From Halothiobacillus sp. (lineage in GTDB: Bacteria; Pseudomonadota; Gammaproteobacteria; Halothiobacillales; Halothiobacillaceae), in contig JAGDVP010000008.1 in assembly GCA_023255735.1 (NCBI GenBank), positions 1 to 43,787 on the forward strand: a stretch of 43,787 nt of DNA. Direction: 5' to 3'. Shown here piece after piece: positions 5,089 through 28,358 of this stretch. Made by a program: the position numbers and the translations under genes. Positions within the stretch are counted from its first letter, which is position 1; each line of letters starts with the position of its first letter. The notes below the pieces were generated by a model, which was not told where the DNA came from, ran no database searches, and saw nothing but the letters and a program-made list of their open reading frames with translations.

Positions 5089-6180
5089 TTAGGGTTTGGC
5101 CTGAAACTCAAAATTAATACTGGACTGAAACAAACTCATATCTGCGGGCAATGGTAACGGCGAGGCGCGCTCAATGGCCTGTTGCACCGATCGCTGAAAC
5201 AACTGATCGCCATCGCATTGCAATACTTTAACATTGATTACCGTACCGTCGGATGCCTGTGAAATTCGCACATTGCATTTCCATTGAGGCTCCCAGCCCG
5301 GTGGCTTATACCATTGCGATTGGACTTTATTTTTAATCGCCGCCATGTAGGCATTCAGCACACCTTGGGATTGTTGTGTGCGCAATTCATCTTGCAACTG
5401 GCTTTTAAGCGCCGCTTCTTGCGCTTGTCGCGCCTTGGCGGCGGCTTCTTTTGCGGCTTCCGCTTTAGCGGCCTTATCGGCTGCCTCTTTAGCGGCCTTT
5501 TGCTGGGCGGCTTCTTTTGCGGCCTTTGCCTCGGCCGCTTTATCGGCTTGGGCTTTGGCTGCCTTTTCGGCCAGCGCTTTTTCTGCGGCGACTTTTTCTG
5601 CAGCCTGTTTATTGAGCTCAGCTGCTTTGGCGGCAGCGGCCTTGGCCTCGGCGGCGGCCGCCTTTTCTCTCGCTGCCTCAGCTTGCGCGGCTTGTTTTTG
5701 CGCATCCGCCCGAGCGGTTTCTTGCTGGATTTTTTCGAGCGCTTTTTGCTGCGAATCTAACGCAAGCTCTGCCTGTTTTTGCGCGGCTTGTGCCGCTTTC
5801 AGTTGCGCCTCTTGCGCCGCTGCGGCCTGCTGTCGGCTTTCACGCAAGGCTTCTAGCTGCTGCAAACGCGCTTGCTCGGCGCGGCGTGCCGATGCTGCGA
5901 GTTCTGCGGCGGCTTGCGCTTTCTCAGCCTCAGATTTTTGTTGTTTTAAGGCTTGTTCACGTTGCGCGTCGGCGCTTTTAAGCCGATTGAGTTGCTGGTC
6001 AATCGCCGATTGCGGCACCGAAGTCGCTTGGATGGTTTGTTCGGTGGGTGTATTGGAAGCCTCGGAGGCCGGTGAAAAGGCGTGCATTTTAAACGAGATA
6101 AAAATCGCCAACACAATCAGCAAGTGCAATACGATTGCCAACAGCGTGGCGAGTGGCATACGGGCAAACCAACGAAACAT
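5089..6180 (-). CDS. tolA: Cell envelope integrity protein TolA
   Basis: TolA spans the periplasm and couples the TolQR motor to TolB/Pal. The 363-residue protein has one N-terminal membrane segment (about residues 10-32, LATLLAIVLHLLIVLAIFIS). A very long Ala/Lys/Glu/Gln-rich helical stalk (about 60-265) is built of KAAAE-like units. The C-terminal globular domain contains KNKVQSQWYKP, C-x-VRI and CDGDQLFQRSVQQAI. Stop and start are 2 bases from tolR. The stalk composition creates long spurious open frames on the opposite strand. Confidence 0.95.
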   Translation of the reverse strand: MFRWFARMPLATLLAIVLHLLIVLAIFISFKMHAFSPASEASNTPTEQTIQATSVPQSAIDQQLNRLKSADAQREQALKQQKSEAEKAQAAAELAASARRAEQARLQQLEALRESRQQAAAAQEAQLKAAQAAQKQAELALDSQQKALEKIQQETARADAQKQAAQAEAAREKAAAAEAKAAAAKAAELNKQAAEKVAAEKALAEKAAKAQADKAAEAKAAKEAAQQKAAKEAADKAAKAEAAKEAAAKARQAQEAALKSQLQDELRTQQSQGVLNAYMAAIKNKVQSQWYKPPGWEPQWKCNVRISQASDGTVINVKVLQCDGDQLFQRSVQQAIERASPLPLPADMSLFQSSINFEFQAKP

Positions 6181-17539: not shown

Positions 17540-18139
17540 TTAATTTGGGTGGCTCATATCGCGCTCAAAACGCAAGCGCATTTCATCAATGCGCGTTTCA
17601 AGCTGGCGAATATCCGGCACGGCAACTCGCCGCCCTGCAAGCATCGCCGTTCGGTACCATAAGCCGCCGGCATCAAAATTCTCTTCGCTCAAGCTGTCGG
17701 CTAAGAGCTCTTCCGAGCGCGGCACGCCCGAGAGCAAAATGGCGTAGTAAGGCAGCGCAATTTCAGGATGAGTGCCGTAAAGCACCGCACAACGAACACG
17801 CTGGCCAATCGTCGGCAAGGGTTCGTTCTGCATGGCTTCAAGGCTCACCAAGGGCACGCGCTGCCCACGCCACTCAACCAACGCCGCATCTAACCGACCC
17901 AGGTGGGTTTCCCCTTCGGGCAAAATAACCTCTGTAATTTCGGCCACGAGCGCATACGGCACAATGAGCTCAATCTGCGTCATTTGGGTCGGCAAACGCA
18001 CAATACGGATTCGTTGCGCGGCTGGGTTTTTTGCGGCCGATTGCGCCTCGGACAATTCATGACCCAACTCATACGCGGTATCCATTACCTCGGGCGCATC
18101 ATCGGCTAAACGATGCGGGGTTTCGCCTATGCTATTCAT
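17540..18139 (-). CDS. chpC: CheW-like adaptor of the Pil-Chp system, ChpC
   Basis: The 199-residue protein has a CheW domain from about residue 45 on (RIVRLPTQMTQIELIVPYALVAEITEV, then VEWRGQRVPLVSLEAM). CheW-type adaptors connect chemoreceptors with the kinase. It is the second CheW in the cluster, after PilI, and lies just downstream of chpA, which is the position of ChpC in Pseudomonas aeruginosa. The N-terminal 40 residues are acidic and not conserved by eye. It is the last gene of the minus-strand cluster. The gap 17433-17539 to the convergent membrane-protein gene holds only short inverted repeats and a tandem CCTAAATGTT-like pair. Confidence 0.82.
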   Translation of the reverse strand: MNSIGETPHRLADDAPEVMDTAYELGHELSEAQSAAKNPAAQRIRIVRLPTQMTQIELIVPYALVAEITEVILPEGETHLGRLDAALVEWRGQRVPLVSLEAMQNEPLPTIGQRVRCAVLYGTHPEIALPYYAILLSGVPRSEELLADSLSEENFDAGGLWYRTAMLAGRRVAVPDIRQLETRIDEMRLRFERDMSHPN

Positions 18140-18172: not shown

Positions 18173-21100
18173 CTATTGGCTATTACTTTCGGCCAATTGG
18201 CGGCGCTTTTCCGTCAAAAACTCTTCAATTCGCGCAATCAAATCTGCCTCAGCATACGGTTTACCCAAGTAGGCGCTCACACCTAAGGCCTCGGCTCGAT
18301 TACGGTGTTTTTGCCCCGTGCGTGATGAAATCATAATCACCGGCACTGCGCGCGTTTGCGGGTCATTGCGGATAGCGCCCAGCAACTCAAACCCATCCAT
18401 GCGCGGCATTTCAATATCGGTGAGCACCACATCGGGCTGCTGCTCGTGCAGAATGCCAAGCGCCTCCACCCCATCTCGCGCCAAGACGACATCTAAATTA
18501 TTGCGCTCCAAGGTGCGCGCCGTCACTTTGCGCACGGTCAAGGAATCATCTACCACCATCACCACAGGGCGACGGCGTGCGACCGAACTCTGGGTTAAAT
18601 CAACCGAGCGATCATCACGACGCTGGAACTGCCGCACCAGCTCAAAGAGCTCCAACACCAGAATTACATTGCCATCATCGGCAATCGTAGCGCCAGACAG
18701 CCCCGGAATACGCCCCAGTTGCGGTCCTAGCGATTTCACAAACAGCTGAATGCCGCCCAATTGATAATCAACCTGGATCGCAAAACGGCGCTCGCCTAAC
18801 TTAAACAGGAATACCGGCCGGATGCCGGCTTCTTGGGTTTCGGCATTAAACGGGGTTTGGTTGAGCAATTCGCCCAAATAAAATAAGGGGTAACGTTCGC
18901 CATTTAAGGTCACGGCCGGCTTAGCGCTGGCGTATTGTTCCGCCAGCTGTACGGCGGTCATCCGCGTGACAGACACCACACCTTTATAAGGAATGGCATA
19001 GCGCTCATCCCCTAGGGCCACCAAAATACCCCGCGTCATCGCTTGCGTGAGCGGCAAGTTCAGTTGGATGCGGGTAAAGTGCCCCTGCTCAGAATTCAAA
19101 TCGACAAAGCCACCCAGTTCTCGCACGGCACTGGCGACAACATCCATGCCCACACCCCGACCCGCCACTTGCGAGACATTGCCCGCCGTCGAGAAGCCGG
19201 GTAGGAAAATTAACGCGCGCGCCTCGTCATCGGTCAGCTCAATATCGGCAGGCACCACCTTGCGCTCAATGGCTTTGCGCCGGATGGTGTCTAAATCCAA
19301 GCCACGGCCATCATCCTTCAATTCAAGGGTTACGTTGCCGCCAAAGCTTTCAATGGTGATCTCAATTTGGCCAATTTCTGGCTTGCCCAACGCTTGGCGC
19401 TCTTCCGGTGATTCAATGCCATGCGCCAAACTATTACGAATCATGTGCTCAAGCGAGGGCATTAAGCCGACTAAGGTCACACGGTCAAGCTCGGTCTCGC
19501 CATTATGGATAATCAACTCGGCATTGCGACCCATTTCATCGCCCACTTGGCGAACCACACGGCGCAAACGCCCGACCACATCGTTAAATCGCACCATCCG
19601 CAGCGCCAGCATGCCATCTTGCATTTTGCGCCCCAGGCGCGACTGTTGCAGCAAGAGCAATTGCGACTGCTCGGTTAAATCGCTCATGGCCTCTTCAATA
19701 CTGGAAATATCGCCCAAGCTTTCCATGATGCCGCGGCTTAACTCTTGCACTTGCGTGAAGCGATCGAACTCCAGCGGGTCAAACTCATCGGCGCTCAAGC
19801 CCGACTCGGCCATGAGCTCTGCTTTCATTTGCGATTCGGTTTCTATCTCCAAGCGGCGCAATTGGTTTCTTAAGCGCGCTAAGGTTTGCTGCAATTCAAA
19901 CAACTGCCGCTCAAATCCATTCACCTGACGATCAATCCGCGCCTGCAACAAGACGCTCTCGCCCACTTGGTTCACCATGGCATCAATGCGATCGGCATCG
20001 ACTCGAATTTGCTCGCGCCGCATTTCACCGGTTGAGCCGCCGGCACCGTGCGCCGATAGCAACTCTTGCTCTGGCTCTTGAGCCGACTCTTGCTCGGATC
20101 CGGCCGGCACCGCTTGCTCGGTGGGCTGCGGTGGAATTACCTGCGCAGTAGCAACCACCGAGGGCGCCGATGCGGGTTCAGATACGGGCTTATGCTTGGA
20201 CTCGGTATCAACAATTTGCGCCAACAAGGCCACTTGCGCGGGCACGGGCTCTTGCCGCCGCACCAGATCCAGCATTTTCGCCAGTTCATCGTAGGTGTGT
20301 TGCACGAGATAAATCAGATGGTCGGTTTGCTCACCCCCGCGGTCACGGGCACGATCTAAGCGATCTTCCAGCAAATGCGTTACATCGGCGAGGTTCAATA
20401 AACCCGCCATGCGCGCACCGCCTTTGAGGGTGTGCAAGTTGCGATGCAGCAATCGGATGGAGTCCAAATCATGCGGGTGCGAACGCCAATGCGCGATGTA
20501 CCCATCGGCTTTTTCTAGCAACTCTTCCGCTTCTTCCAGGAAAATTTGCAAGATGTCGGCATCTTGCTCGGCGGGTAGATCATCGGGGCGCACGGCAATC
20601 TCGAAATCGGCCGCCGCAGGCCGCGTAAACACGGGCTCATCAGCCGCGCCAAGCACTGGGCGCTCTGCACCCAGCGCGGGCCACGCATCAACCACCCGTT
20701 CTGCAATAGGCGCAACCTCAGATTTTGGCTGAGCCTCACCCTCTGCATTAGCTAAAGCATCGACAAGAGACGCCAAATCGGCGTAATCATCCACATCAAT
20801 TGCCGCCGAACCCACCTCGACCGGAGCGGCGCGTGCCAATGTTTGATCGATGTGCAGCGCGAGTTCCTGCTCAACGGCGTCAATCTCAGGGGCGGAAAAA
20901 CTCGGCTCAATCGCCCACTGCCGCAGGCGATCCATCATCAGCAAAGCGCGCTGGAATGCGGCCAAATCGGCATGATCGAGCAAGGTATTTTGCTCTTCCA
21001 ATAACCGAACCCACTCCTCAAGCCGCTGTGCAATCGTCGCAATGGGCTGAACCCCAGCCGTGCGCGCCGAGCCGAGCAGGGTATGCACCAAGCGCGCTAA

Positions 21101-24100
21101 TTCTTTGTCGCAGACCATCGTTATCTGATTTGTCAGCGCATGATCTACCTGATTGCGTAAGGCCTGGATATACCCAGATGACTCGGTATCAAAGATCTCA
21201 CGCAGCACGGGATCGAGAATAATCGGCTGGCGGGCAGGGGCTGCCTGCGCCTCTGGCGCGATGTGTTCACGCGATTCAACCCTTATTGCTTCAGGGGCAA
21301 CCGCATCAACCGCATCAACCGCATCAACCGCATCAACCGCATCAACCGCATCAACCGCTTCAACCGCTTCAACCGCTTCAACCGCTTCAACCGCTTCAAC
21401 CGCTTCAACCGCGTCAACCGCTTCAACGCTGATCGCTTCGGGGGCAACCGCCTCGATGCTAATCGCTTCGGGAGCCTCCTCTTCGCTCGCTCCGATTGCG
21501 TTCGGGGTGGCCATAGCGAGGGCATCTTCGGGCACTTCCTGCGCGTTATGTTCCGCCCATGCGGTACTACTTAATTCATCTAGGCTCAGCGTTTCTTCTT
21601 TTTCCTCATCGGCAGGCGACATCGCCGCGGCAGAACCTGCGGCCAGCGCGTTGCTCCAGCCCTCTGCTTTGGCAAGCGAGGCTTGCCAATACGCCGTAGG
21701 CGGCTGGTTACCGGCGGCCAAAACCGGCAAGGCTTGCGCCATCAGTTCAACCGCTGCCAGCACATCGGCACGAATCTCGTTGGTAACGGCAATCCGATCC
21801 TCAAGCACATGATTCAATAAATGCTCAAAAGCCCAACCCCAATCCCCAATAGCGGTTAATCCCACCATACGGCTACTGCCTTTAATGGTGTGGAAGCCAC
21901 GGCGAACGATCGTTAAGGCGTCGCGATGGCCACTATCTCGCCACTGGGTGGCCGCAGCTAAAATAGCGGGAACTTCCTCGGCCATTTCCTCGGCGAACAC
22001 CTCGCGCATTTCCAGCGTGAGCGCGTCAACCGGCGCACCATCTGATTTAGGCCCTGCAAGGGCGGGCGCAACCAAAGCTTCGTGTTCGGCCAAACTGAGG
22101 GCTTCGCTAGCTGCCTCATCAACTAATAGCGCATCCAAATCGCTCAATTCACAGGGATGCGCACCACGATCTGCCTCTGGCAGCACGCTGTCTAATGCCC
22201 CATCTTGGCTTGAATGCAGCGCATCAGCTTCAAGTTTAGTGGATACCGAAGGCGCAATCGGATTTTGCGCTGCCGCCTCATCCAATAATTCAGGCCAAGG
22301 CTCCGGTGCGGCAGGTTCAAGTGCGGGAAAGTCTATCGGAGGCGTCGCCTCGGGTTCAACCGCGGGCGGCATTTGTGCCCAGAACGGCAGTTCCTCCGCA
22401 GGTTCTAAGCTGTTTGGCGCTTCGAATTGCAACTCAAAGGCTTGCGCCAGACCAGGTTCAAGTTCTGGCTCAAGTTCTGGCTCGGCGTGCGCCTGCGCCC
22501 ACAATTGATTGGGTTGGGATAATTGCCGTTCAGCCCACTGATCCGCCGCTTCGAGGTCAGAAGGCACGGACTGCTCGATGGGTGGATGAGCGGGTAAATC
22601 TTCTTCCCGTTGTAACGGCTGCGGCGCATCCAACGAAAGCTCAATCCATTCGGGCACTTTGGCCTGTGACCCGTGGCTGGCTTCATCCTGTTCAAGTGCC
22701 GCCGCGATCGATGACGCAGATGCCAAGGCATCGGGTTCAAGTGGCATGGGCACGGGCGAGGGTGTGGGCAGCGCCGCCCAAGAATCGGGCTCAAACGCCT
22801 CGGGCGAAGCTCGGAGCTGCGCGATCAAATCATCCACGCTGGCAAGCGACTCATCTATAACGCCTGTGCGCTCAGGCTCGCTTAAAGCCTCAACAATTGG
22901 CAGAGTCGACAGTTCAGAAACCCGCTCAACGCCGCCATCGCGCTGCAATATCGGCAGCATTTCAACCGCGCCACTTAAGAATTGCAGCAGTTCTTTTTGA
23001 TGATTGCGCAAATTCTCTAAGTAAAATTCAATGGCAGCCGACACCTCAGCCAATGCGCCAAGTCCTTCGGGCGTGACTTGGGTTACATCTGAAGCGTTGG
23101 CAATTAGCCAGCACCGCAGCCCATCAATGAGCGGCATGGCGGCGTAAAACTGTGCCACCGTCAACGCATTACGCACCCCGGTAACCAACTCAACCGCATG
23201 GCCTAGCGTGTCGGAGGGCACCGGCTGACCACTCGGCCGCAAGGCGGTATTAACGATTTCTTTGGCGGCAATGATATCGTCGTAACAGGCGGTCGCGAGC
23301 GGCACCAGAGCCTGCTTAGCGGCTCGATCCACCGTTGTTAATATGGCATCAGTATCGACAATATGTTGACCAATTTGCGATACCACCTGCTCAGTGGTGA
23401 TAACGGCAACAGCCAATTTCATCAAAAAATCATCGCTTAAGAGCTCAGATCCCCGCACGACTAAAATCAGCTCGTCCAATGCATCGCGTATTAATGCCGA
23501 TTCATGATCGTAATTCAGTGCGCCGAGCACCCCGACGATATGCTCCAACCGGGGCTGAATACGCAAAAGCGGCTCAAGATCAGACTTAGCGCTGCGCACA
23601 AATAAATCCAAAACATCTTGCGCGGCATCCAGCTCTTCGGCCAAAACCTCGGCAACCTGTTTTAGAGCTGCAGTTTCCAAGCCTAAAAAGCGAATCCGCT
23701 CATGATCTGCCGATAAATTTTTACGCCAAACCTGAACCGTATCACCACAAAGCGCCTGGTCTTCGGGCAGTGACTCAATCAATTCAAGCAATAAGTCGGT
23801 CGCAAATTCAATGGCTTCAAAACGAATTAAAAGCTGATCGCGCCCTTGCATTACCATACGGAATAATCGCAAAACCCGACCAATCATGCGCTTAGCCAAA
23901 GGCAAATAACGCACTTGATCCGCATAAACCGCGTGCAGTAACTCCTCAAATACGCGCGTGGCCACCACAACGGCGCGATTAATCTCTCGATCAATCATTG
24001 CATCAAAGGTTTTGAGCAAATTCGCAATCGCACCAATATCGCCGCGCATCAAGAACAAAATCTGCTGTTCCATTTGCGATAACATCTGTTGCGAGGCGGC

Positions 24101-24610
24101 AATACCACTCGGCTCTGCGGCCTGCGTGCCTAGGTAGGGGCGAACAAAAACGCGACTTTCCGACCAAAAAATGCTGGCGCGAGTCAAAATATTTCGGGTA
24201 TCGAGCACCGACAATCCTTGAGCCGATCGCAACCGGTTAATCATCGGTTGCAGGCTTGCGGCATTAACGACCGCGCCGATACTCAAACGATCCAACACAG
24301 CGCGCAATAACCACGCGCCCTCGGTGACGGCGGTTAGGAGGGCTGTGGTGCGATCGGATGGGGATTCAAGTTGAACCAACGCAGCCATTTGCTCTTTAAA
24401 CAGAACGCGCAAGATGTGAAAATCCGACACAGCCAAAACAGCATCAATGGTTTTGATTGCCTGCAATGACTCAAACACATGCTCATTACCGCCGATGCCG
24501 CTGCTTAAATCATCCAGCGCGTGCAGTAATTGATCGAGTTTCTCTGTCAGCCCTTCCCGGAGCCAATCAAGAACTATTGAATCCACCTTTGATTCTGTGC
24601 GCATGGTCAC
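18173..24610 (-). CDS. chpA: Chemosensory hybrid histidine kinase ChpA (PilL)
   Basis: ChpA is the central CheA-type kinase of the twitching-motility system; it phosphorylates PilG and PilH. The 2145-residue protein has a long helical N-terminal region without a clear phosphorylatable His, resembling the FimL-like part of P. aeruginosa ChpA. Three Hpt modules follow: H907 in GFHTIKGSSRMVG, H1176 in LVHTLLGSARTAG and H1393 in NLHTLKGGARMAG. The CheA dimer/kinase core has its N box at about 1722 (HMIRNSLAHGIESPEE) and the G boxes DDGRGLDLD and GRGVGMDVV. A CheW-like domain and a C-terminal receiver follow; the acidic pair of the receiver is near 2021 and TDIEMPRMDG carries the phospho-acceptor. 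Acidic, Ala-rich linkers join the Hpt modules, and one contains an EAV/DAV tripeptide array (1063-1104). GTG at 24610 is preferred as start because TAGGAG lies 6 bases upstream. Confidence 0.93.
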   Translation of the reverse strand: MTMRTESKVDSIVLDWLREGLTEKLDQLLHALDDLSSGIGGNEHVFESLQAIKTIDAVLAVSDFHILRVLFKEQMAALVQLESPSDRTTALLTAVTEGAWLLRAVLDRLSIGAVVNAASLQPMINRLRSAQGLSVLDTRNILTRASIFWSESRVFVRPYLGTQAAEPSGIAASQQMLSQMEQQILFLMRGDIGAIANLLKTFDAMIDREINRAVVVATRVFEELLHAVYADQVRYLPLAKRMIGRVLRLFRMVMQGRDQLLIRFEAIEFATDLLLELIESLPEDQALCGDTVQVWRKNLSADHERIRFLGLETAALKQVAEVLAEELDAAQDVLDLFVRSAKSDLEPLLRIQPRLEHIVGVLGALNYDHESALIRDALDELILVVRGSELLSDDFLMKLAVAVITTEQVVSQIGQHIVDTDAILTTVDRAAKQALVPLATACYDDIIAAKEIVNTALRPSGQPVPSDTLGHAVELVTGVRNALTVAQFYAAMPLIDGLRCWLIANASDVTQVTPEGLGALAEVSAAIEFYLENLRNHQKELLQFLSGAVEMLPILQRDGGVERVSELSTLPIVEALSEPERTGVIDESLASVDDLIAQLRASPEAFEPDSWAALPTPSPVPMPLEPDALASASSIAAALEQDEASHGSQAKVPEWIELSLDAPQPLQREEDLPAHPPIEQSVPSDLEAADQWAERQLSQPNQLWAQAHAEPELEPELEPGLAQAFELQFEAPNSLEPAEELPFWAQMPPAVEPEATPPIDFPALEPAAPEPWPELLDEAAAQNPIAPSVSTKLEADALHSSQDGALDSVLPEADRGAHPCELSDLDALLVDEAASEALSLAEHEALVAPALAGPKSDGAPVDALTLEMREVFAEEMAEEVPAILAAATQWRDSGHRDALTIVRRGFHTIKGSSRMVGLTAIGDWGWAFEHLLNHVLEDRIAVTNEIRADVLAAVELMAQALPVLAAGNQPPTAYWQASLAKAEGWSNALAAGSAAAMSPADEEKEETLSLDELSSTAWAEHNAQEVPEDALAMATPNAIGASEEEAPEAISIEAVAPEAISVEAVDAVEAVEAVEAVEAVEAVEAVDAVDAVDAVDAVDAVDAVAPEAIRVESREHIAPEAQAAPARQPIILDPVLREIFDTESSGYIQALRNQVDHALTNQITMVCDKELARLVHTLLGSARTAGVQPIATIAQRLEEWVRLLEEQNTLLDHADLAAFQRALLMMDRLRQWAIEPSFSAPEIDAVEQELALHIDQTLARAAPVEVGSAAIDVDDYADLASLVDALANAEGEAQPKSEVAPIAERVVDAWPALGAERPVLGAADEPVFTRPAAADFEIAVRPDDLPAEQDADILQIFLEEAEELLEKADGYIAHWRSHPHDLDSIRLLHRNLHTLKGGARMAGLLNLADVTHLLEDRLDRARDRGGEQTDHLIYLVQHTYDELAKMLDLVRRQEPVPAQVALLAQIVDTESKHKPVSEPASAPSVVATAQVIPPQPTEQAVPAGSEQESAQEPEQELLSAHGAGGSTGEMRREQIRVDADRIDAMVNQVGESVLLQARIDRQVNGFERQLFELQQTLARLRNQLRRLEIETESQMKAELMAESGLSADEFDPLEFDRFTQVQELSRGIMESLGDISSIEEAMSDLTEQSQLLLLQQSRLGRKMQDGMLALRMVRFNDVVGRLRRVVRQVGDEMGRNAELIIHNGETELDRVTLVGLMPSLEHMIRNSLAHGIESPEERQALGKPEIGQIEITIESFGGNVTLELKDDGRGLDLDTIRRKAIERKVVPADIELTDDEARALIFLPGFSTAGNVSQVAGRGVGMDVVASAVRELGGFVDLNSEQGHFTRIQLNLPLTQAMTRGILVALGDERYAIPYKGVVSVTRMTAVQLAEQYASAKPAVTLNGERYPLFYLGELLNQTPFNAETQEAGIRPVFLFKLGERRFAIQVDYQLGGIQLFVKSLGPQLGRIPGLSGATIADDGNVILVLELFELVRQFQRRDDRSVDLTQSSVARRRPVVMVVDDSLTVRKVTARTLERNNLDVVLARDGVEALGILHEQQPDVVLTDIEMPRMDGFELLGAIRNDPQTRAVPVIMISSRTGQKHRNRAEALGVSAYLGKPYAEADLIARIEEFLTEKRRQLAESNSQ
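21299..21424. repeat. 9-bp minisatellite inside chpA, 14 tandem copies
   Basis: On the plus strand the unit AACCGCATC occurs six times in a row (21299-21352), then AACCGCTTC six times (21353-21406), AACCGCGTC once and AACCGCTTC once (to 21424). Each unit encodes DAV or EAV on the minus strand, giving 42 residues of ChpA (1063-1104). The unit length is a multiple of three, so gain or loss of copies would change linker length without shifting the reading frame. The two homogeneous blocks suggest recent expansion by slippage. Confidence 0.97.
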
Positions 24611-24799: not shown

Positions 24800-26815
24800 C
24801 TAGCGATCAGGCATTTTGAAGCCTGCAACCGAATTGTTCAGCTCTTGAGATAACGAACCCAATGCGCCAATTTCGTCTGCCGCTCGAATGGCTTTTTCGG
24901 TTGTATCTTGTGTTTCGGTACGGATTTCATTCACCGTTTCCCGCAGACTGGTGGCTACCGAAGCTTCCTGTTCGGTTACCTTGGCAATTTCACTAATTTG
25001 CTCAGAAAGGCTCAGCGAGACCGTTTCAATTTCTTGCAGCGCTTTACCGGCATTTTCAGCCAGTGTGGCACCACCCACCACATTGGTTGTGGTTTGTTCC
25101 ATGGCCAGCATGGCTTCAGAGGTATCGGTTTGAATCGTATTCACCAGCAACTCAATTTGGCGCGTCGCCTTACCCACGCGCTCGGCCAACCTTTGAACTT
25201 CATCGGCAACCACCGCAAAGCCTCGGCCGGCCTCACCTGCCATCGCCGCCTGAATGGCCGCATTCAATGCCAGAATGTTGGTTTGATCCGCAATATCGGT
25301 AATCAAACCCACGATGTCACCAATTTCTTGGGAAGATTCCCCCAGCCGTTTAATTCGTTTAGCCGTTTCTTGAATTTGTTCTCGAATATTCGCCATGCCG
25401 GTAATGGTTTCGCGCACGGCATCACCGCCCCGATGCGCCACATTCACCGAAGATTGTGCAATGGAAGCGGACTGTTGCGCGTTAAAAGATACGGCTTCAA
25501 TTTGATCGGCCATTTGGGCAATGGCATCTGAAACGGTACTAATTTGCAGCGCTTGCTTGCGTGAACTATCAGCCAATGCGCGTGAATCTGATTGCGAGCG
25601 CTGCACCGCGCCCGCGACGCGCTCGGAGGTGTCGTTAATCGTACCAACCAAATCACGCAAGGCATCAATGGAGTAGTTCACGGAATCTGCTATGGCGCCG
25701 GTAATTTCTTCTGTGACCGTGGTGTGTGAAGACAAATCCCCGTCGGCCAGCGTCATCATTTCATCCAGCAGTCGCAAAATAGCCTGCTGATTGCGTTGAT
25801 TTTGCGCTTCGGTAGAGCGCAAAGCACGCTGAGAATCTTGAACCAGAACGACCCCTAGCCACAACAGCAAGAGCAAGGCGGCTGAGCCCGTGAGATAACC
25901 CACATAGGCTAACTGACCTGAATGCACCTGATCATCCGTTAATGCCGCGCTTAATTTTGAAACATCTGTCGTGAATACACCGGAGGTTTTGTCGATGACA
26001 CTGGCCGCTTGGTTCGCGGCGAGCAGGGCAGGTGCCTGCGCCAACACATCAGAACCACCTTGGTTGACGGTGGCAAATAGCACCGCCACATCACGCAATT
26101 TGGCGCGCACGGCGGCGTCGGTAATTTGCGGCGCCATTCGGTTGCCATTTAAAAACCCGTTCAGCACACCGCCAAACAAGGCGACATCCCGGCCAAAACG
26201 ATCCGAGGCATTCGCTGCATCTTGATCGCCGCTGGTGATTTCACCCATGGTTAAACCAATCCGCTCAACCAGCATTAATTGACGTGTCGCAAGATACACA
26301 ACCTGAGGCGTGGCCTGACCGGCAATTAACGACTGCACGACATCATCGGAGCTTGAAAGCAAATCGGGCAACAATTGGTTGATTTGCGCTGCCAAGCCCG
26401 ACACGCCCAAAATGGCTTGCTGACCTTCCAGCACCTTGGCAAGCGCCAGATTGTATTGCGACCAGCTTTTTTGCACGGCAGCGAGTTCGGCTGCGCGGTT
26501 GCTCGGCACTTGGCCATCGGGGCGTTTGCTGTCTTTACCGCTGAGCGCGTCTAAATCGGCAATAAATTTTGCGCGCAACGCCAGCACGTTATCAAACGAG
26601 GTTTTGTTACCGCGAACGGCGCGCAGGGTTTCAATCGTCATCTCCTGCGCGGATCTTTCAAGCTGAGCGGCGATTAAGCGCCGATCAAGCAGCGATTGAT
26701 CGTTCTGCGCAGAAACGATAAAAATGATAACTGTCGCTAATAGGGCAATTGCCGCGACGGCGATTAACCCGATAATTTGACGACTTAGGCCGCCTAACCG
26801 AACTCCAAGACTCAT
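24800..26815 (-). CDS. pilJ: Methyl-accepting chemoreceptor PilJ
   Basis: PilJ is the inner-membrane receptor that feeds ChpA through PilI and ChpC. The 671-residue protein has a membrane segment at about residues 12-34 and a periplasmic region of about 270 residues. A second membrane segment lies at about 303-325 ([19 protein letters not shown]). The cytoplasmic signalling hairpin has the tip sequence [32 protein letters not shown], split here by the usual MCP pattern. The tip reads [15 protein letters not shown] rather than the common NAAIEAARAGEAGRG, as in PilJ proteins. It lies between pilI and chpA. The 190-bp gap to chpA holds no gene. Confidence 0.93.
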
Positions 26816-26935: not shown

Positions 26936-27451
26936 TTACGCCACCGCATTCATAAATTGATCGCTTTCTGTAAGCACATCTAGGTTCAAAATGGGCAACC
27001 ATTCATTATCAATGCGGGCTTCTCGCTGCACCCCCACCCAACGAGCTCCCGTCACGTTGCGCTCAGCGCTAAAGGGAATTTGGCGGATACCGTAAGATCG
27101 ACCGACCAAAAACGCGGCACTGAATCGTTGGGTTTTGGTCAAAAAAACAACCGAATGACGATTGGGTTCAGCGGGTTGATCAAAAAATAATCGGGATAAG
27201 TCATAAATCCCGGTTAAATCACCCCGCATGTTGGCGAGCCCCGTGACCCAAGGCTTAGCGCCCGGAACGCTCACTTGCTTTGGCGGTGGCAAAATAGCGC
27301 GCACTTGAATTAAGGGCACGAGCATTCTCTGCCCACCGGTACGAAACAGAATGGCCTGCCAAGTAGATTCGACTTTATCTGATTTTGGCATGCCAACCGC
27401 CTGGGATTTAGCTTGCGTTTCAATCCAGCGAATATATTCAAACAAATCCAT
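26936..27451 (-). CDS. pilI: CheW-like adaptor PilI
   Basis: The 171-residue CheW-domain protein couples PilJ to ChpA. Visible landmarks are RTGGQRMLVPLIQVRAILPPP, the VPGAKPWVTGLANMRGDLTGIYDLSRLF block that is the CheW signature, and a C-terminal PILNLDVLTESDQF. A good ribosome site, GGTAGG, is 4-5 bases before the ATG. It follows pilH by 20 bases, in the order pilG-pilH-pilI-pilJ known from Pseudomonas. Confidence 0.92.
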   Translation of the reverse strand: MDLFEYIRWIETQAKSQAVGMPKSDKVESTWQAILFRTGGQRMLVPLIQVRAILPPPKQVSVPGAKPWVTGLANMRGDLTGIYDLSRLFFDQPAEPNRHSVVFLTKTQRFSAAFLVGRSYGIRQIPFSAERNVTGARWVGVQREARIDNEWLPILNLDVLTESDQFMNAVA

Positions 27452-27471: not shown

Positions 27472-27834
27472 TTAATGCAAAATGGTACTCAAAATTCCCA
27501 TGAGATCCGACTCTTTTACCGGTTTAACAAGATAATCTTTGGCGCCCTGACGCATGCCCCAGATTTTATCGGTTTGCTGATCTTTTGTGGTCACGATAAT
27601 GACAGGAATATGCGCGGTATCTGCGCCTTTATTCAGCTCCCGAGTTGCCTGAAAGCCGTTCATACCGGGCATAACCACATCCATCAATACCGCATCGGGC
27701 TGAGCACTTTTAACGAGCGCAATGCCATCTTCTGCATTTTTAGCAACCGATACTTTATGACCATTACGCTCCAGCATGGTTTGCAATACATAAACTTCAG
27801 TTGGAGAATCATCCACTACCACAATATGTGCCAC
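27472..27834 (-). CDS. pilH: Twitching motility response regulator PilH
   Basis: This is a stand-alone receiver domain of 120 residues. It shows the acidic pair in VVVDDSPTEVY, the phospho-acceptor Asp in VLMDVVMPGMNGF, the switch Thr in VIIVTTKDQ and Lys in YLVKPVKESDL. In P. aeruginosa PilH opposes or drains signal from PilG and influences the retraction motor. Position after pilG and the MDVVMPGMNGFQATREL block fit PilH. Confidence 0.93.
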   Translation of the reverse strand: MAHIVVVDDSPTEVYVLQTMLERNGHKVSVAKNAEDGIALVKSAQPDAVLMDVVMPGMNGFQATRELNKGADTAHIPVIIVTTKDQQTDKIWGMRQGAKDYLVKPVKESDLMGILSTILH

Positions 27835-27914
27835 AGCATTAATCCTTAATTCAATTTTTTCATTTTATGACCGGGCTTCATCCCCAATACCGAAAGGCGT
27901 GCAGGTTTGCAGCA

Positions 27915-28358
27915 TTAGGCGGCGTGACCTTGGGTATCTTGAGCCCGGTCACTTAAGGCAAACCGCCCAATGGCAGCAAATAGCTCTTCACTGGTGAACG
28001 GTTTCGTTAAGTAATCGGAAGCGCCAACAATGTTGCCGCGCGCTTTATCAAAAATACTATCTTTGCTTGAAAGCATAATGACGGGTGTGCGGGCAAAGCG
28101 CGCGTTGTGCTTGATGATGGCCGTGGTTTGGTAGCCATCAAGACGCGGCATAAGAATATCGATAATGACCACATCGGGTGAAAAATCACCAATTTTGGCC
28201 AACGCATCAAAGCCATCAACGGCGCTTTCAATCACGCAGCCTGCCTTGGAGAGCAAGCTGTCAGCTGTGCGCCGAATGGTTTTGCTGTCATCGACAATCA
28301 GTACTTTAAGCCCCGGAAAAGCAAGCGCCTCTGCAGACGATTCCATTGGATGTTCCAT
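27915..28358 (-). CDS. pilG: Twitching motility response regulator PilG
   Basis: The 147-residue single-domain receiver has an N-terminal extension of about 17 residues before the first beta strand (LKVLIVDDSKTIRRTADSLL). The phospho-acceptor is in VVIIDILMPRLDGYQT, the switch residue in VIMLSSKDS, and the lysine in YLTKPFTSEELF. PilG is the output of Pil-Chp toward pilus extension in Pseudomonas. It is the first gene of the cluster. No pilT, pilB or pilus structural gene is in the window. Confidence 0.92.
   Translation of the reverse strand: MEHPMESSAEALAFPGLKVLIVDDSKTIRRTADSLLSKAGCVIESAVDGFDALAKIGDFSPDVVIIDILMPRLDGYQTTAIIKHNARFARTPVIMLSSKDSIFDKARGNIVGASDYLTKPFTSEELFAAIGRFALSDRAQDTQGHAA

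Follow-up and report, generated by a model that had tools for sequence, protein, structure and literature searches.

Does a tandem array that lies within the frame of a signalling kinase tune the output of that kinase, or is it simply tolerated there? The question is raised by a 43,787-nucleotide stretch of DNA from Halothiobacillus sp. (the window), for which an earlier note had proposed that a 9-bp minisatellite in a ChpA kinase acts as a rheostat for twitching motility. Contig C10, which carries the window, is one of the 29 contigs of a 2.06-Mb genome (93.5% completeness). Our best reading, which we take as the default and consider probable, is that the array arose by slippage and that the acidic tether between Hpt modules tolerates it. 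If arrays in ChpA linkers did grade output, they would provide a heritable, graded dial on surface motility, unlike on/off phase variation. Even if the array is neutral, it illustrates that repeat counts from short reads can equal the k limit of the assembler exactly.

The host gene and its 9-bp array

The array lies in an open reading frame of 2145 codons on the minus strand (18173..24610, GTG start; delimited by ORF, translation and Pfam matches). The product possesses three Hpt domains, H-kinase_dim, HATPase_c, CheW and a receiver domain (all five families exceed their curated cut-offs), in other words the dimerisation, HATPase, CheW and receiver domains of a Tfp-class CheA preceded by several Hpt domains. 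The motif search confirmed H907 (codon 21890..21892, minus strand) and H1176 (21083..21085, minus strand) as the histidines of Hpt1 and Hpt2, as the earlier note had them, and added a third in Hpt3, H1393 (20432..20434, minus strand; best Pfam Hpt stretch 1352-1446). Pfam likewise found three Hpt stretches. Hpt2 reads HTLLG, a variant when set against Tfp-class CheA proteins such as ChpA of Pseudomonas aeruginosa.

Upstream of the kinase gene, and likewise on the minus strand, lie a pilJ-type chemoreceptor gene (24800..26815; MCPsignal and PilJ matches in Pfam), a CheW gene (26936..27451; CheW match in Pfam) and, within 27487..28307, two stretches matching the receiver domain of ChpA (27487-27825 and 27936-28307). 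From their position the CheW gene is probably pilI, and the receiver stretches are presumably pilH and pilG. Because of the domain set and the adjoining PilJ-type and CheW genes we regard the kinase as ChpA-type, and it would control twitching via type IV pili. It resembles P. aeruginosa ChpA in its several Hpt domains, CheA core, receiver domain and pil-type neighbourhood, but has three Hpt domains, whereas for P. aeruginosa the literature gives either eight, of which six have the histidine, or no fewer than nine Xpt domains (PMC10542144, PMC12632253). A 199-aa ORF right after the kinase gene (window 17540-18139) gave no Pfam match at E 0.001.

The array itself (21298..21427, minus strand) has 14.4 copies of its 9-bp unit in the assembly and the highest score among the 11 TRF rows of the window (score 211, 97% match). 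In the direction of the protein it consists of one GTT-GAA-GCG, one GTT-GAC-GCG, six GTT-GAA-GCG and six GTT-GAT-GCG, so that the 14 units read EAV, DAV, six EAV and six DAV. Every difference among them falls on the wobble position of the acidic codon, which is GAA, GAC or GAT, and the lone DAV (GAC) is distinguished in this way from the DAV block (GAT). The six EAV units of the block lie in a perfect period-9 run of 62 bases (21351..21412, minus strand), the six DAV units of the other block in one of 61 bases (21298..21358, minus strand). The coordinates and the unit given in the earlier note are correct, and its blocks (six DAV, six EAV, then one of each) are so in plus-strand order, both by TRF and by reading of the codons. 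The linker peptide is APEAISIEAV-APEAISVEAV-DAV-(EAV)6-(DAV)6-APEAIRVE, and the array is flanked by an older, diverged 30-bp repeat encoding APEAIS[IV]EAV (21415..21472, minus strand; TRF period 30, 1.9 copies, 85%), which is probably the cradle of the 9-mer.

Since the units are tandem, a multiple of three in length and enclosed in an open frame, the array is an in-frame intragenic minisatellite. The linker that holds it is acidic and of low complexity and joins Hpt1 to Hpt2, whose histidines are 269 residues apart, or 227 without the 14 units. In this respect TRF, translation and Pfam bear out the original description of an in-frame, slippage-type array in a ChpA-type kinase, between its first two Hpt modules. 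A 301-base query with the array found no second copy elsewhere in the genome at E 0.001. Low complexity arising by chance can be excluded: perfect period-9 runs did not exceed 22 bases when the codons of the whole gene were shuffled 1000 times, nor 26 bases when those of the linker alone, with the array codons kept, were shuffled 5000 times, against 62 in the gene. An on/off phase-variable contingency locus was rejected as well, because the 9-bp unit preserves the reading frame, deep inside the ORF.

Copy number and the limit of the assembly

How far can the printed copy number be trusted? When 400 bases from each of the 58 contig ends were compared, exactly 55 bases were common to 11 pairs of contig termini (nine common-end and two adjoining-end pairs, some of them within groups of three). 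With the all-N contig C24 set aside, the one other terminal overlap of at least 15 bases was a single pair at 18; further stretches were shared between ends but were never terminal at both sides. Exact terminal overlaps of 55 bases are the mark of de Bruijn assembly with k=55, so the assembly was probably built at that value. In a k=55 graph a period-9 run of up to 63 bases is linear, while a longer one forms a loop. The runs of 62 and 61 bases fall in the range of 55-63, in which 55-mers within the run are present and a loop is absent. Because both runs stand at this limit, the copy number is a lower bound: the true array has at least 6 + 6 copies, and these data make its existence secure.

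Either homogeneous block, or both, may be longer in the cell and have been written as six by the graph, for which we would give somewhat less than an even chance. Besides the 55-base termini and the position of both runs within the critical range, simulated k=55 graphs speak for it: block pairs of 7+6, 6+7, 7+7, 9+12 and 20+20 each formed a loop, and the shortest path through the graph spelled 6 + 6, while 6+6 and 5+5 spelled themselves. Perfect tandem runs above the k=55 limit were absent from the 443,787 bases of the genome, window included, that were scanned, although the four rows of at least 30 bases found there (three in the array, one of period 30) are too few to decide on collapse. A similar array in Stutzerimonas, described below, has contigs that start inside it or within 5 bases of it (C5 and C41 of G171, C44 of G431), a sign that assembly may fail at arrays of this kind. 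Against longer blocks stands the simple fact that a genuine 6 + 6 array yields the identical contig without a loop. Many assemblers, moreover, resolve short loops with reads longer than k, and the same assembly marks another unresolved 55-base repeat with a 100-N gap, whereas the window is free of N.

Two claims of the earlier note are affected. The slippage-type array stands, but the six plus six taken as its signature also equals the limit at k=55. The collapse in short-read assembly that the note considered possible would fit two blocks at that limit, as would a true 6 + 6 array. A longer array would concern the copy number alone and is compatible with a tolerated slippage array.

The scanned stretches held two N gaps, of 10 and 100 N. 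The latter (L189:7328-7427, that is G000:C4:87328-87427) represents an unresolved repeat, since the 55 bases to its left recur 122 bases to its right. The peptide start at this locus resembles, in our view, that of CsoS1-type carboxysome shell genes, and tandem shell paralogues may have collapsed there.

Linkers in Halothiobacillus and in other ChpA-type genes

Ten genomes of the genus were searched, the window's own included, and the stretch from Hpt1 to Hpt2 was readable in nine. The EAV/DAV array is confined to one of these nine, the window's genome, and with the unit missing from the eight other readable members, no array conserved throughout the genus was seen. Other repeats occur in the same linker, with units of 45 bp (G003; 2.3 copies, 98%), 12 bp (G004; 3.3 copies) and 15 bp (G009; 2.3 copies), so that 4/9 genomes carry a TRF array there; the remaining five have none of score 50 or more. 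Some of the genus repeat units hold proline (EQMP, APEAIEDVRAHEAW). All nine genomes have an acidic linker (net charge -13 to -38), 91-163 aa in length, and the histidines are 219-291 residues apart, a range that includes the window's 269 residues as well as the 227 without the array. Acidity persists in all nine while lengths and repeats differ, so that composition is conserved more than length or sequence. In the tenth genome (G005, L012) the chpA frame is broken in the Hpt1-Hpt2 linker (517 nt from His to His, a length that three does not divide), at the site of the repeats in sister genomes; the break may be real or an assembly fault.

A wider search yielded 587 confirmed candidates, the best 80 of which were used. 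As the 80th proved to be the G004 gene again, 79 of them, the window and eight loci of the genus gave 88 ChpA-type loci, which because of this selection are not an even sample. An ORF with the motifs was obtained from 71/88 loci and none from the other 17. TRF arrays of score 50 or more were found in 33/71 ORFs and were absent from 38/71; arrays are thus common but not general in ChpA-type genes. With compartments delimited roughly, by motif, the linkers between Hpt domains held 44 of the 68 merged arrays (in 25 loci), where 15.4 were expected from their 22.6% of the length. The Hpt domains held 3 (11.4 expected), the kinase core 3 (20.4 expected) and the parts ahead of Hpt1 18 (20.8 expected). 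The TRF period was divisible by 3 in 89/94 rows from these genes, a predominance that an open frame favours.

The ChpA linker of Stenotrophomonas rhizophila (L049:8058-8125) has its own GTTGAAGCC array of 7.6 copies, whose peptide, VEA, is nearly the same as that of the window's array. Proline-holding units were also found elsewhere among ChpA linkers (ELTEPV, EPEQ). Two ChpA arrays are very long. In Lysobacter maris (L059) EAER-type units of 15, 45 and 90 bp extend across some 200 aa between Hpt motifs; in a Sedimenticola MAG (L105) a 51-bp unit is present in 6.3 copies ahead of the first Hpt motif found. Among the titles and abstract openings listed, none concerned a repeat array in chpA. 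One P. aeruginosa isolate has 18 bp inserted in its chpA, a within-species change of ChpA length whose position is absent from the passage cited (PMC7344871).

A natural length series in Stutzerimonas and the readings of the array

A GCCGAA unit, encoding AE, occupies the same place in Stutzerimonas kunmingensis (L082, 6.7 copies) and a Pseudomonas MAG (L078, 20.7 copies). Class-wide DNA searches with the linkers of Stutzerimonas and Stenotrophomonas, whose matches were mostly short and served this purpose only, led to genome G171. We take its genus as Stutzerimonas because one of the genomes there matches the L082 query at 100% identity across 1001 bases; the query matched 55/56 genomes of that genus. 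The locus was read in 50/56 genomes (L206-L235, L238-L257) and measured in 48. Left out were G431, in which a contig starts inside the array, and G407 (L222), a single-contig genome whose chpA frame is disrupted upstream of the array.

In 39/48 genomes the AE run has 6 residues or more, and its length at this one linker site takes 22 different values between 6 and 55 residues; the remaining nine had runs of 0-4. Four genomes (G395, G387, G397 and G382) that share 97-100% identity with the query along roughly 1000 bases have 6, 5, 8 and 4 units. The nine measured single-contig genomes, a kind less open to repeat collapse, have 41, 11, 39, 13, 16, 9, 4, 30 and 0 AE residues, and because these lengths differ the variation is not merely an effect of assembly. 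Copy number does change at ChpA linker sites between species, and the repeats there turn over. The in-frame copy change foreseen for the window's array thus has a counterpart, by analogy, in another genus, where a ChpA linker array varies between close relatives with the frame open.

The remainder of the AE-bearing spacing is about 309 residues, and within 5 of this in 34/39 genomes. Array length was uncorrelated with the rest of the linker in the 39 genomes (rho -0.14, p 0.38) and, with the genome of shortest rest omitted, in 47/48 (rho 0.01). The idea that the array compensates so as to hold total linker length constant is accordingly unsupported, here as in the measurements from Halothiobacillus. 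The next Hpt spacing ranged from 190 to 403 residues in the 48 genomes, a range that a missed motif may inflate.

Like the window's array, the (AE)n array of Stutzerimonas is acidic, keeps the frame and lies in a linker between Hpt modules, and its host kinase is homologous. Unlike it, it has a unit of 6 bp, occurs in 39/48 measured genomes of its genus and lies after an Hpt2-like module rather than between Hpt1 and Hpt2; it was assigned to a different linker because of this location, based on pairwise Hpt scores. The rheostat idea is better studied on it than on the array of the window: with 6 to 55 residues at a single site, this natural series allows a direct test.

In the rheostat proposal slippage alters the length of the tether and so grades Hpt phosphotransfer and type IV pilus output, the variability itself being selected. 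The unit is in-frame, arrays recur in ChpA linkers, and copy number differs between close relatives, as in the four Stutzerimonas genomes with 4 to 8 units. The 18-bp insertion mentioned above would fit too (PMC7344871), and there is a precedent in tolA of Escherichia coli, an intragenic repeat for which strain variation, contraction frequency and effects graded with repeat number were measured (PMC3477136). The window's array is likewise in-frame and intragenic, and tolA copy number varies without a frame shift (PMC3477136), but the host here is a kinase, known from sequence and from one genome of its species. An array found in one of nine readable genus members, a linker length within the genus range and the lack of any relation between array length and the rest of the linker in Stutzerimonas all tell against selected variability. 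The words 'tunes' and 'rheostat' therefore go beyond these results, and we consider the proposal unlikely for this array. Its broader form, in which fast-mutating in-frame arrays settle again and again, through selection, in the inter-Hpt linkers of ChpA and their copy number grades phosphorelay output and twitching while the kinase is never off, appears improbable to us too. A length-variable acidic tether would then have evolved repeatedly, as EAV here, AE in Stutzerimonas and VEA in Stenotrophomonas. The retention of an AE array in 39/48 Stutzerimonas genomes, with a rest of about 309 residues, could nevertheless mean that selection retains it.

Alternatively, the repeats might form a structured element such as a rigid E/A-rich helix spacer, in which sequence would matter besides length. 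EAV, AE and EAER-type units recur in several ChpA linkers, and acidic and alanine residues favour helices. Other linker units differ, however, and some contain proline (ELTEPV, EPEQ, EQMP and APEAIEDVRAHEAW); we consider this account very improbable.

For a slippage array tolerated in the tether speak an array and frame far from chance, linkers that are acidic yet variable within the genus, the enrichment of arrays between Hpt domains, the separate VEA array of Stenotrophomonas and the length range of (AE)n in Stutzerimonas, while the 38/71 ORFs without an array count against it. The minisatellite would have arisen from the older 30-bp repeat in the long, acidic, low-complexity tether of a ChpA-type kinase. 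Slippage or unequal exchange may then have turned a few point changes in the acidic codon, observed as GAA, GAT and GAC, into blocks. The tether would tolerate changes in length because composition matters more than length or sequence for the Hpt modules to reach the kinase and receiver domains. We infer slippage as the cause, a disordered linker and tolerance of length, the last being argued from variability alone. A signalling effect, if any, would be a by-product, perhaps selected and perhaps not, and the genome would hold at least the 14 copies printed, perhaps more. Tandem amino-acid repeats of Borg proteins, according to the passages cited, are also recently formed, in-frame and commonly located in disordered regions, and similar units occur there in related proteins, as they do here; repeats are pervasive in Borgs, whereas the present arrays belong to the linkers of one kinase family (PMC9879509).

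The window contains a second repeat-rich stretch (5440-5567; TRF period 66, score 158), which sits in a TolA-like ORF on the minus strand (5089-6180; TonB_2 and TolA matches in Pfam). TolA is an envelope protein, and it is for tolA repeats that a functional precedent is known.
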